A stretch of 41,216 nt of DNA from Triparma columacea (Eukaryota; Sar; Bolidophyceae; Parmales; Triparmaceae), in contig BRYA01000995.1 of assembly GCA_030267965.1 (NCBI GenBank), positions 1 through 41,216 of the forward strand, in the 5' to 3' direction. Made by a program: the position numbers and the translations under genes. Position 1 is the stretch's first letter; the number at the start of each line of letters is the position of its first letter. Shown piece by piece: positions 11,645-18,224 of the stretch. Below the pieces are notes generated by a model. That model made no database searches and was not told where the DNA came from. It was given only the letters and a program-made list of their open reading frames with translations.

Positions 11645-14600
11645 ATGATAATTCGTAGTTTGATTATACCCCTCTTCCTCCTGGTGTCGATACTGGTTTA
11701 CACTATTGTCGCGGAAGCTCCTTGTGAGGACACAACTAGCCTGATCTCTAGCACGAGAACCACAAGGACGAAGCTTTGCTCTGTTATCCACAGCAAACTG
11801 ATCTCAGCGAACAACGACAACGAAGAAGCTCAGTTCAACAAAGTCTTTAACAGGAACTGCGGCCCCGGCACTGCTACCTCGCAGTGGGAGTACTTCCCCG
11901 GCAACTGCACGTGCACCTGCGGCATGGACTTCACTGGGCCCACTGACAACCCGACGCCTGCACCCACTCCCGTCCCTACCCCTACTCCCACGCCTGCACC
12001 CACTCCGGCCTCTTGTTTTGACTNNNNNNNNNNNNNNNNNNNNNCGACGAAGCTACTTTCAACAGAGTCAAAAAGAGGAACTGCGGCCCCGGCCCTGCTA
12101 ACTGGCAGTGGGGTTACTTCCCCGGCAACTGCACGTGCACGTGCGCCAAGGAATTCTGCCTCGACGATAGTAGCTTCAGAACGGCACTTGATCTCTGGTT
12201 TATTAATCAACCCCTTGCGATAAGCACATACGGCAACATCGCGAACTGGTAAGTAGTTGGAAGAACAAGCGAGTAGAGAGGATGCAGATGGGGTTATGTG
12301 GTGGGCAGGCGGACTAAGTGAGACGGGAAAACGAAGCATCACGGAAGGGTGGGCACGCAAGCCCCAGTAACAACTAACCCTTATATTATTCTCTTCTCGG
12401 CAATCCGCCCCCTGCGGACCCAAATTGAATCGACGGCTGTGCAGGTGCACGAGGGATGTCACTGACATGTCGTATGCATTCCAACGCAAATTTACATTCA
12501 ACGAGGACATCAGCGGATGGGATGTCTCGAGTGTCACTGATATGGAGAGTATGTTCCGGTGAGTATTGAGAGAGCTTTGGAGATGAGGTCTTTGTGGTTT
12601 GCGTGATATCTTTGCAGCATCCTATTTTAAGCAATATACTCGCTTCTCATTCTAACATTCACACATGCACACGCAAATCTCATATTGCACATCACCACTC
12701 GGCCTTGAATTAAACGCAGTGGCGCTTATGTCTTCAACCAGAACATTGGGAACTGGGATGTCTCAAGTGTCACTGAAATGTATCAGATGTTCAAGTGAGT
12801 ATTGAGAGATGCTTTGGAGATGAGGTCTTCGTGGTTTGCGTGCTTTCTTTGCTGCATTCTATTTTAAGTAATATGCTCGCTTCTCATTCTAACATTCACA
12901 CACGCACAATCAAATCTCATCTCACACATCTCCCCTCGGCTTTGAATTCAACGCAGTGGCGCTTTGGTCTTCAACCAGGATATTGGAAGTTGGAATGTCT
13001 CGAGTGTCACTGATATGGAGAGTATGTTCGTGTGAGTATTGAGAGATGCTTTGGAGATGAGGTCTTTGTGTTTTGCGTGTTACCTTTGCTGCATCCTATT
13101 TTAAGTAATATACTCGCTTCTCATTCTGACATTCACACACGCACACGCAAATCTAATCTCGCACATTTCCACTCGGCATTAAACTAAATGCAGTGCGGCA
13201 GATGACTTCAACCAGGATATTGGGAGTTGGGATGTCTCGAGTGTCACTGACATGCAGTTTATGTTCCGGTGAGTATTGAGAGATGCTTTGGAGATGAGGT
13301 CTTCGTGGTTTGCTGTTATCGCTGCTGCATTCTATTTTAAGTAATACACTCGCTTCTCATTCTAACATTCCCACACGCACACGCAAATTTCATCTTGCAC
13401 ATCTCCACTCGGCATTGAATTCAACGCAGTAACGCTTATGACTTCAACAAGGATATTGGGAGTTGGGATGTCTCCAGTGTCACTGACATGTTTGGAATGT
13501 TCAGGTGAGTATTGAGAGATGCTTTTGAAATGAGGTCTTCGTGGATTGCGTGTTACCTTTGCTGCATCCTATTTTAAGTAATATACTCGCTTCTCATTCT
13601 GACATTCACACATGCACACGCAAATCTCATCTTGCACATCACCACTCGGCATTGAATTCAACGCAGTTTCGCAGAAGTCTTCAACGAGGACATCAGCGGA
13701 TGGGATGTCTCGAGTGTCACTGATATGGAGAGTATGTTCCGGTGAGTACTGAGAGATGCTTTGGAGATGAGGTCTATGTGGTTTGCATGTTATCTTTGCT
13801 GCATTCTATTTTAATAATATACGTTCGCTTCTCAGTCTAACATTCACATATGCACACGCAAATCTCATCTCGCACATCTCCACTCGGCATTGAATTAAAC
13901 GCAGTAACGCAGAAGTCTTCAACCAGGATATTGGAAGTTGGAATGTCTCTAGTGTCACTAACATGAATTTAATGTTCGGGTGAGTATTGAGAGATGCTTT
14001 GGAGATGAGGTCTATGTGGTTTGCATGTTATCTTTGTGGCATTCTATTTTAAGTAATATACTCGCTTCTCATTCTCACATTCACATACGCACACGCAAAT
14101 CTCATCTCGCACATCTCCACTCGGCATTGAATTCAACGCAGTAACGCAGAAGTCTTCAACCAGGATATTGGGAGTTGGAATGTCTCGAGTGTCACTGTTA
14201 TGTCTGATATGTTCTAGTGAGTATTGAGAGATGCTTTGGAGATGAGGTCTTTGTGGTTTGCATGTTATCTTTGCTGCATTCTATTTTAAGTGTAATACAC
14301 TCGCTTCTCATTCTAACATTCACACACGCACACGCAAATCTCATCTCGCACATTTCCACTCGGCCTTGAATTAAACGCAGTGAGGCCTATGTCTTCAACC
14401 AGAATATTGGAAGTTGGGATGTCTCCAGTGTCACTGAGATGAATTTAATGTTCTAGTGAGTATTGAGAGATGATTTTGAGATGAGGTCTTCGTAGTTTGC
14501 GTGCTATCTTTGCTGCATTCTATTTTAAGTAATATATTTGCTTCTCATTCTGACATTCACACATGCACACGCAAATCTCATCTCGCATATCTCCACTCGG

Positions 14601-17600: not shown

Positions 17601-18224
17601 CATTCTATTTTAAGGAATATACGTTCGCTTCTCATTCTAACATTCACATACGCACACGCAAATCTCATCTCGCACATCTCCACTCGGCATTGAATTCAAC
17701 ACAGTGATGCTTATGAATTCAACAAGAGCATTGGGAGTTGGGATGTCTCGAGTGTCACTGACATGGAGGGTATGTTCGCGTGAGTATTGAGAGATGCTTT
17801 TGAGACGAGGTCTTTGTAGTTTGCGTGCTATCTTTTCTGCATTCTATTTTAAGTAATATACTTGCTTCTCATTCTAACATTCACACATGCACACGCAAAT
17901 CTCATCTTGCACATCTCCACTCGTCATTGAATTAAACGCAGTTTCGCAGCAGTCTTCAACCAGGATATTGGGAGTTGGGATGTCTCGAGTGTCACGAATA
18001 TGGCGTTTATGTTCGAAGGCGCAATTGCCTTTGTCAAGGACGTCAAGGTCTGGAACATATGCAAAGTCGGCACTGGCAATTTTGATTCCATGTTCACTGA
18101 CTCCGGCCAACCAACAGCTAATCTGGTACCCAATGCTAACGGAGAATGCATTGATTGCCCTGACGGTACCACCTCTGGCTCCGGAAAGTACGTATCGGGC
18201 CAAAACCCTTGCACCTCAATCTAA
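11645..18224 (+). CDS. Secreted DUF285 (BspA-type) repeat protein, 25 exons
   Basis: Exon 1 (11645-12248, with a 21-N gap) encodes a signal peptide, two copies of a Cys motif (NCGPG..PGNCTCTC) and a P-T-P-A-P-T linker. Exon 2 is 12445-12558. Exons 3-24 are each exactly 75 nt, phase 2 on both sides, and start at 12720, 12957, 13194, 13430, 13667, 13905, 14142, 14381, 14618, 14855, 15090, 15327, 15564, 15801, 16040, 16277, 16514, 16749, 16990, 17227, 17464 and 17705. Exon 25 (17942-18224) ends the repeats and adds a Cys-rich tail (C-x2-C-P-D-G-T-T). Each 75-nt exon is one 25-residue DUF285 repeat, consensus FNQDIGSWNVSSVTDM. DUF285/BspA repeats form leucine-rich-like solenoids on surface proteins of mycoplasmas and protists. 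Likely role: secreted or wall-associated binding protein. The frame across the gap needs a length of 1 mod 3, so 21 N is not the true size. Start chosen because the signal peptide begins there. Confidence 0.85.
12024..12044. other. Assembly gap (21 N) inside DUF285 exon 1
   Basis: The run of N lies between two copies of a Cys-rich motif (upstream E-A-Q-F-N-K..RNCGPG, downstream E-A-T-F-N-R..RNCGPG). The coding frame before the gap runs into the frame after it only if the real gap is 1 mod 3, so bases are missing or the tandem motif was collapsed. The apparent frameshift is an assembly artefact. Confidence 0.95.
12559..17941 (+). repeat. Tandem 237-bp exon-intron cassette array (DUF285 gene)
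   Basis: Twenty-three near-identical introns flank 22 exons of 75 nt. Unit spacing is 235-241 bp, mode 237; most introns are 160-164 nt, two are 166. Every array intron starts GTGAGT, ends ACGCAG, ATGCAG or ACACAG, and keeps a block ending ATTCT(A/G/C)ACATTCACA, whose YTNAC core could be the branch point. By eye the introns are at least as similar to each other as the exons, which means units spread by duplication or conversion of whole exon-intron cassettes. Higher-order duplication is visible: about 400 bp from 16824 and from 17539 match almost perfectly and share rare variants (offset 715 bp, three units). Confidence 0.93.

Follow-up and report, generated by a model that had tools for sequence, protein, structure and literature searches.

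The window analyzed here, the 41,216-nucleotide (nt) contig BRYA01000995.1 of the small marine alga Triparma columacea (Parmales, Bolidophyceae; assembly GCA_030267965.1), carries on its forward strand a predicted gene (11645–18224) in which a solenoid of DUF285 repeats is laid out as a cassette array, with one 25-residue repeat per 75-nt exon and closely similar introns in between. The pattern of these cassettes is probably the product of short-tract exchange between genes together with selection for diverse surface residues on a predicted secreted, leucine-rich-repeat (LRR)-like solenoid. A first-pass annotation of the DNA had proposed interchangeable units and diversity by cassette exchange; in agreement with this, the cassettes form a genome-wide family, units of different loci are almost fully mixed, and five codons of the repeat are nearly saturated with variation. 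All results come from the genome of one strain, and the splicing of the cassette introns is predicted from its sequence alone.

The part of the gene at 12445–18224 contains 22 internal exons (12720–17779), each of exactly 75 nt, in phase 2 on both sides and starting with T. Each encodes a single DUF285 repeat, the last codon of which is split 2+1 over the next intron. All 23 donors of the array read GTGAGT, and the predicted introns are 160–166 nt long and end without exception in CAG. Joining the exons in silico yields one open frame of 750 codons including the stop, counted from just 3' of an assembly gap in exon 1, and Tandem Repeats Finder places the same array at 12518–17995 (period 237, 23.1 copies). 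In the 682-residue spliced solenoid, Pfam reported DUF285 (PF03382) with 1186 bits against a gathering cut-off of 25 (E = 0), along with two weaker families; it reported none in the N-terminal 126 residues (exon 1 before the gap). Judged by eye, exon 1 begins (11645) with a signal-peptide-like stretch. Pieces related to its N-terminal part were found in contigs C112, C2, C218, and C472, and weakly in C676.

From these features we infer that the introns are spliced out. The rebuilt gene model agrees with the first-pass annotation in the number, length, and phase of the internal exons and in their content of one repeat each. The introns had been called near-identical; the 23 are indeed alike, but with a mean identity of 90.3% (range 84.6–99.4%) the wording was slightly too strong. 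Were any of the 23 introns retained, its first complete codon would, as had been stated, be a stop (NNG TGA). Since this follows automatically from phase 2 and the GTGAGT donor, we dismissed it as independent support for the gene model. The claim that exons can be skipped or lost without harm to the frame also stands, and because all 22 exons start with T, any junction among them forms an NNT codon and never a stop. Frame-preserving skipping is, however, a by-product of unit duplication and was set aside as evidence for alternative splicing.

The search for similar cassette genes in the same genome that had been suggested returned 287 copies of the donor-end motif (exon 3' end plus donor), distributed over 44 contigs and 49 clusters (split at gaps >1500 base pairs (bp)). 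The reversed motif occurred 0 times, which excludes a chance origin. Motif positions were taken from four partial searches (87 + 92 + 49 + 59 copies), and 173 of the 238 spacings below 1500 bp fall at 227–247 bp. The gene described above is the longest array, with 23 motif copies; the runner-up has 13. A query made of the upstream intron end and most of the anchor exon, the first solenoid exon, gave at least 40 matches (40 of 65 candidates scored). We fetched 20 loci with the donor motif, often cut by the ends of the fetched DNA. The anchor exon (CTKDVTDMSxAF...FNEDISGWDVSSVTxMxxMF) was recognized in 19 of them, the match starting at query residue 1 or 2, the N-cap (...ALxxWF...TYGNIxDW) in 17, and the C-cap (WNVCKV...ANGxCIDCPAGTTSGSGxYVxGQNPC) in 16; some loci (C4, C746, C78, C112) have more than one such block. 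The predicted common gene plan of the family is thus N-cap, anchor exon, n cassettes, and C-cap.

For comparison of individual units, 119 cassettes of exactly 75 nt were read. They represent 19 loci and come from 18 of the 44 contigs, with two loci on C218 counted as different and exons of other lengths (e.g. 84, 90, 96, 99 nt) excluded from the diversity counts. The search pattern required ATG at codon 20, A/TTG at codon 23, TTC/T at codon 24, and a donor-like hexamer. The donor is GTGAGT in 119 of 119 cassettes and the first exon base is T in 114; 118 are stop-free and were used. From these, 112 introns were obtained, two cassettes being without an upstream intron in the fetched DNA and four being dropped for intervals of 250–413 nt, which probably hold an unrecognized exon. 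The one excluded cassette exon, in C272 (locus L020, donor at 1073), has an in-frame stop in place of a conserved Trp and is possibly a decaying cassette or a sequencing error.

Variation within the cassettes is concentrated at a few positions. Nucleotide diversity (pi) at the split doublet and at the first two bases of codons 1, 3, 21, and 22 is 0.58–0.73 per site, with a mean of 0.670 that is near the possible maximum of 0.75, against 0.096 over the 112 introns and likewise 0.096 over the core, codons 5–19, which is free of codons fixed by the search pattern. All 10 of the variable columns reach a pi of at least 0.55, as compared with 1 of 162 intron columns. The Nei–Gojobori ratio of nonsynonymous to synonymous divergence (dN/dS), which is a counting method and not a site model, is 3.6 at codons 1, 3, 21, and 22 versus 0.46 at codons 5–19 (dS 0.18). 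In codon 4 it is chiefly the second base that varies (pi 0.62). Which synonymous codon is used at the variable sites depends largely on codon position: two-codon residues ending in a pyrimidine use C at codon 1 (48/56) and T at codons 3, 21, and 22 (108/114), and K/E/Q codons end in G at codons 1 and 21 (55/57), in A at codon 3 (33/37), and in A or G at codon 22 (14/8). At the variable codons, residues have been replaced far more than silent sites, although some silent sites vary as well. The set of variable residues is distinct in 115 of 118 cassettes. In the sequence these residues alternate with M20, M23, F24, A2, and F5, a pattern that would correspond to an exposed face above a buried one, and selection appears to act on them.

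A few cassettes in C314, C218, and C112 have about 9–24 extra nt (multiples of 3) beside codons 1–4, giving exons of 84–99 nt; the variable 5' block hence also tolerates changes in length. The sizing behind these lengths took the shortest possible exon and gave wrong lengths for some 75-nt exons.

Cassettes from the same locus are, on average, no more alike than cassettes from different loci. The mean intron distance is 0.096 both within and between loci, and 268 of 500 label shuffles gave a difference between the two as low as this; the 22 units of this gene alone contain an intron diversity of 0.097, compared with 0.095 for the other 90 units. Over the 112 units, the squared correlation between sites (r2) declines from 0.071 at 1 bp to 0.0151 at 12–19 bp, 0.0117 at 20–29 bp, and 0.0108 at 30–49 bp, the value expected without linkage being 0.009 for 112 units. 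All four combinations were present, at least three times each, for 84 of 91 pairs of common non-hypervariable sites. Associations between exon codons with z >4 were confined to codons 1–4, 7–11, and 21–22. Between the 5' block (codons 1–4) and the 3' block (21, 22, and split codon) of one exon no z exceeded 2.1, and across the intron, in 84 adjacent cassette pairs, no codon association exceeded 2.5. By these measures, locus-level structure among the cassettes is nearly absent and linkage is lost within about 30 bp. Because introns are no closer within a locus and linkage is lost over so short a distance, the cassettes likely exchange short tracts across loci.

Repeats of the cassette type without the intron occur at three loci. 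In C634, four repeats lie in one exon with cassette introns on both flanks; in C4, the anchor and six repeats continue without introns into the C-cap; and in C272, two repeats are fused. The core DNA of the fused repeats is on average 93–97% identical to the cassette consensus, versus 60–66% for nine other DUF285 loci. The joints lie exactly at the predicted splice junctions, and the first base of the repeat is T in 12 of 13. This suggests either that the fused arrays arose by recombination with copies of spliced RNA or that these repeats never had the intron; under either origin, the exact absence of the intron provides comparative backing for the predicted exon boundaries. A search with the intron only gave 230 matches, and all 150 matches listed lie on cassette contigs. 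Among these 150 of 230, the intron thus does not behave like an introner spread over genes in general. The genome also has other DUF285 genes that lack introns, a second set in long frames (e.g. L064–L069) of the TSQVTSM type and others; DUF285 matches in the genome number at least 195, the longest frame among the matches listed having 1768 codons.

In protein searches, most matches were bacterial or unnamed DUF285 proteins and none was a named Triparma cassette protein, both among the best 120 of 6856 matches and in 13 of 13 matches of a further search. When viral contigs were scanned for exact copies of the intron start, 0 were found, and a viral origin of the cassette was rejected on this result; records near this genome are possibly missing from the set. 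In the literature, we found no paper joining Triparma and DUF285 nor, among the papers listed, one on DUF285 cassette exons, and the main text of the Parmales genome paper (PMC10328945) has 0 occurrences of DUF285, introns, leucine, LRR, or BspA.

Exchange and selection most likely produced these arrays by the following mechanism. Through gene conversion or unequal crossing over, cassettes in different genes would swap short DNA tracts, with the constant intron and exon core supplying the homology. Selection would keep the residues of one solenoid face diverse. Owing to the uniform phase and mostly invariant first T, almost all new combinations would remain in frame and stop-free: over 118 exons, the junction codon is a stop in 105 of 13,924 ordered pairs, and in none within this gene. 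Each cassette would in this way serve as an interchangeable address module.

Several observations weigh against this proposal. At two silent positions, the third bases of codons 2 and 15, diversity is high (pi 0.61 and 0.41), and the variable codons have a Nei–Gojobori dS of 0.51 rather than 0.1. The positions that vary in the cassettes vary, together with the framework, in 63 intronless DUF285 repeats from this genome as well, a set that includes the 13 fused repeats of cassette type; part of the variability at these positions thus belongs to the repeat in general. One intron column shows an association with codon 2 that spans the 3' half of the intron (z 6.1), and a second column shows one with codon 15 (z 4.3). 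For 30 of 112 units, as against 9.5 expected, the closest cassette is one from the same locus, and within this gene (C686) alone linkage reaches about 32 bp (r2 0.12 vs 0.048); from these two facts and the likeness of units 19 and 22, which are a recent local duplication, it follows that local duplication also occurs. The 19 loci were picked by similarity or contig number and are a non-random sample, and constancy at codons 20, 23, and 24 and at the donor proves nothing, as it was imposed by the search pattern. The short-read assembly makes the number and order of units provisional. With 37.9 Mb in 789 contigs, the genome scanned falls short of the 43.0 Mbp in 1,858 scaffolds that were published (PMC10328945, Table 1), and genome-wide cassette counts are therefore lower bounds. 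A Foldseek search gave no match in the PDB with an E of 0.001 or better. The basis throughout is the DNA of a single genome.

Four other explanations were weighed against exchange with selection. The array could be an isoform generator, in which varied exon skipping produces many solenoids from one gene. All exons are phase-symmetric, as this would demand, stop junctions are rare, and brown-algal genes with 72-bp phase-2 LRR exons have splice variants (PMC11378527). Symmetric exons are, however, equally needed for growth by unit duplication and hence give no pointer to skipping, and the uniform donors (a donor-like hexamer being preset in the pattern) include no weak one that would mark optional exons; we consider this explanation unlikely. 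Rather improbable, too, is ordinary tandem duplication within genes, with relaxed surface codons and neither exchange between genes nor selection for diversity. It would account for the 0.4% difference between units 19 and 22 and for same-locus nearest neighbors at three times the chance level, but not for a mean intron distance that is equal within and between loci or for the full intron diversity held by the 22 units of this gene. Relaxed codons, moreover, should diverge like introns (0.096) and not reach 0.67, and the dN/dS of 3.6 at the variable codons also speaks against relaxation.

A recent introner-like burst, in which many old DUF285 repeats each received an intron at one shared site, would explain why introns show no mean grouping by locus, why some repeats of the family have no intron, and why silent divergence of the core (dS 0.18) is somewhat above intron divergence (0.096). 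We nevertheless hold it to be very unlikely: the 150 listed of the 230 intron matches are all on known cassette contigs, the cassette core is 0.95 identical to the consensus as opposed to 0.60–0.66 for the nine other DUF285 loci, and insertion at an identical site and phase in hundreds of repeats is implausible. Finally, mixing and array length could be false if short reads had been assembled into chimeras. The source genome was assembled from Illumina reads by Platanus with default settings, genome reads being 150 bp from HiSeq X apart from two named exceptions on HiSeq 2500, and T. columacea genes were predicted from protein hints only, without RNA-seq (PMC10328945); the window itself contains N gaps. 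Linkage is, however, already near background at 12–30 bp, far inside a read of 100–150 bp, and its loss is thus not readily an assembly effect. With 118 of 119 cassettes stop-free and a contrast between variable codons and introns that is independent of unit order, chimeric assembly is highly improbable as the source of the pattern.

The features of the gene are listed in Table 1.

Table 1 Predicted features of the cassette gene (positions in the window)
Feature	Position	Strand	Remark
Exon 1: predicted signal peptide (by eye), Cys-rich CTCTC region, PT-rich linker, second Cys-rich copy, N-cap ...ALDLWFINQPLAISTYGNIANW	11645..12248	+	
Assembly gap inside exon 1 (run of N), true length not fixed	12024..12044		Flanking frames mismatch at 21 nt
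Predicted intron 1, GTAAGT...CAG, non-cassette type by eye	12249..12444	+	
Anchor exon, first solenoid exon, 114 nt: CTRDVTDMSYAFQRKFTFNEDISGWDVSSVTDMESMF	12445..12558	+	Relatives begin arrays at other family loci
Cassette array: 23 predicted introns alternating with 22 75-nt exons, phase 2/2	12559..17941	+	
First 75-nt cassette exon (GAYVFNQNIGNWDVSSVTEMYQMF + split codon)	12720..12794	+	
Cassette exons 2–12	starts 12957, 13194, 13430, 13667, 13905, 14142, 14381, 14618, 14855, 15090, 15327	+	
Cassette exons 13–22	starts 15564, 15801, 16040, 16277, 16514, 16749, 16990, 17227, 17464, 17705	+	
Unit 19 (intron + exon)	16824..17064	+	0.4% different from unit 22
Unit 22	17539..17779	+	Near-identical to unit 19
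Last exon: final repeat, C-cap (WNICKVGTGNFDSMF...ANGECIDCPDGTTSGSGKYVSGQNPCTSI), stop	17942..18224	+	

Four further genes or open frames noticed in the window lie on the reverse strand. A frataxin-like gene (18637–19248) is located downstream of the cassette gene and is convergent with it. At 215–6928, a 2237-codon open frame with internally repeated halves, as judged by eye, has an XK-related membrane domain and a START-like region just under the Pfam cut-off. The 662-codon frame at 28105–30093 contains many near-identical PPTPAEGG repeats, an assembly gap (29442–29534), and a membrane-like stretch by eye; its product, too, is a predicted surface protein rich in repeats. The contig of the DUF285 array also carries an LRR gene (31777–33894) that includes a long TP-rich stretch and apparently comprises two or more exons.

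A DUF285 relative has an LRR-like fold, which is a resemblance only, and a sequence search of the PDB gave a chance-level match only. By analogy, we propose that the solenoids may recognize varied partners, namely prey, microbes, viruses, or mates. A tentative and more far-reaching idea, about which we remain doubtful, is that the genome holds a freely recombining pool of ~290 address modules in 49 clusters, each a 75-nt exon in which some six variable surface residues are set in an unchanging frame, from which new secreted LRR-like receptors would be composed by short-tract exchange, with spliced-RNA copies sometimes written back as fused arrays. If this is true, a unicellular phototroph would possess a germline-shuffled recognition repertoire that comes closer to a variable-receptor system than anything else outside animals, fungi, and brown algae. 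Parmales have been predicted to be phago-mixotrophs (PMC10328945), and the DUF285 cassette proteins are concrete candidates for recognition of prey, viruses, or mates in this group. With ~90% identity of introns and cores across the loci read, cassette travel, tract length, and residue diversification become directly measurable, and with ~290 cassettes in a small alga, the question of an adaptive-like repertoire is open to long-read testing.

The variable lymphocyte receptors of lampreys and hagfish are assembled somatically from flanking gene segments, and bacterial transcription activator-like effectors bind DNA through their repeats; to our knowledge, a plan of single-repeat exons separated by shared introns occurs in neither system. 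Zambounis and colleagues reportedly described in 2012 brown-algal LRR-ROCO genes with shuffled LRR exons. The first-pass annotation had called the likeness of the Triparma gene to cassette-built receptors one of logic and not of homology. That wording understates the precedent, as phase-2 LRR exons of 72 bp and 90 bp have been published. The former belong to brown-algal ROCO genes with four positively selected sites and splice variants (Teng 2024, PMC11378527). These share with the Triparma gene a stramenopile algal host, one solenoid repeat per exon of fixed length, phase-2 introns (22 of 22 here), a few codons per repeat under diversifying selection, and a proposal of exon shuffling. The exon is 75 nt in Triparma and 72 bp there, and the brown-algal LRRs sit on a ROC-COR GTPase, whereas the Triparma repeats are of the DUF285 family in a predicted secreted protein. 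Pfam found no ROC-COR domain in the 682-residue solenoid or the N-terminal 126 residues (the gap is unreadable and the post-gap part of exon 1 lies outside the scan), and it reported no canonical LRR family in the spliced solenoid. Triparma, a unicellular alga, also differs in that its introns are ~90% identical across loci and its 287 cassettes are mixed over 49 clusters.

The 90-bp exons with phase-2 introns are those of young Tetrahymena LRR genes, for which ectopic recombination was inferred (PMC6564038). The Triparma genes resemble these in having exons of one exact length, an extreme bias to phase 2, exon numbers that vary widely, and nearly identical exons common to different genes; ectopic recombination is likewise likely in Triparma. 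Tetrahymena is, in contrast, a ciliate with classic LRRs and nearly 50,000 such exons, and the main text of that paper does not contain the term 'positive selection'. Fused exons are represented there by one possible case, compared with three loci in Triparma. In the WD repeats of Podospora anserina het-d and het-e, which are exchanged within and between loci and have four diversifying residues (PMC1805685), high-identity repeats, exchange between loci (for Triparma inferred from one genome that also shows a local excess), and variable repeat number are again combined with few diversifying surface codons, four there and five in Triparma. The Podospora repeats differ in being WD40 units of a NACHT-carrying family (10 genes and 69 repeats in the sequenced strain) that tend to group by gene of origin, and a one-repeat-per-exon plan is not known to us from that family. 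No NACHT domain was found by Pfam in the 682-residue solenoid or the N-terminal 126 residues, the post-gap part of exon 1 being outside the scan.

Closest in the repeat itself are the PARCELs, variable coding elements for a 25-residue amphipathic DUF285 repeat, for which intra-genomic shuffling and horizontal spread were proposed, whose carriers include stramenopile and prasinophyte algae, and whose coding repeats were described as having dyad symmetry (palindromes) (PMC2996958). The Triparma cassettes encode the same 25-residue repeat, with hydrophobic residues conserved, hydrophilic ones variable, and a variable repeat number. The word 'intron' is, however, absent from the main text of PMC2996958, and we found no cassette exons or saturation measurements described there. 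The Triparma family is thus a DUF285/PARCEL family that works like the brown-algal, Tetrahymena, and Podospora systems and is a member of none of the three, because its repeat is different and no ROC-COR or NACHT domain is present in the parts scanned. Fixed-length phase-2 repeat exons were already known from brown algae and Tetrahymena, and shuffling of the DUF285 repeat within genomes had been proposed for PARCELs. What appears to be new is the combination of a DUF285 cassette exon, nearly constant introns, near-complete mixing within one genome, and fused arrays, and such a case in the sister group of diatoms, built on a different family of repeats, suggests that this solution has evolved more than once.

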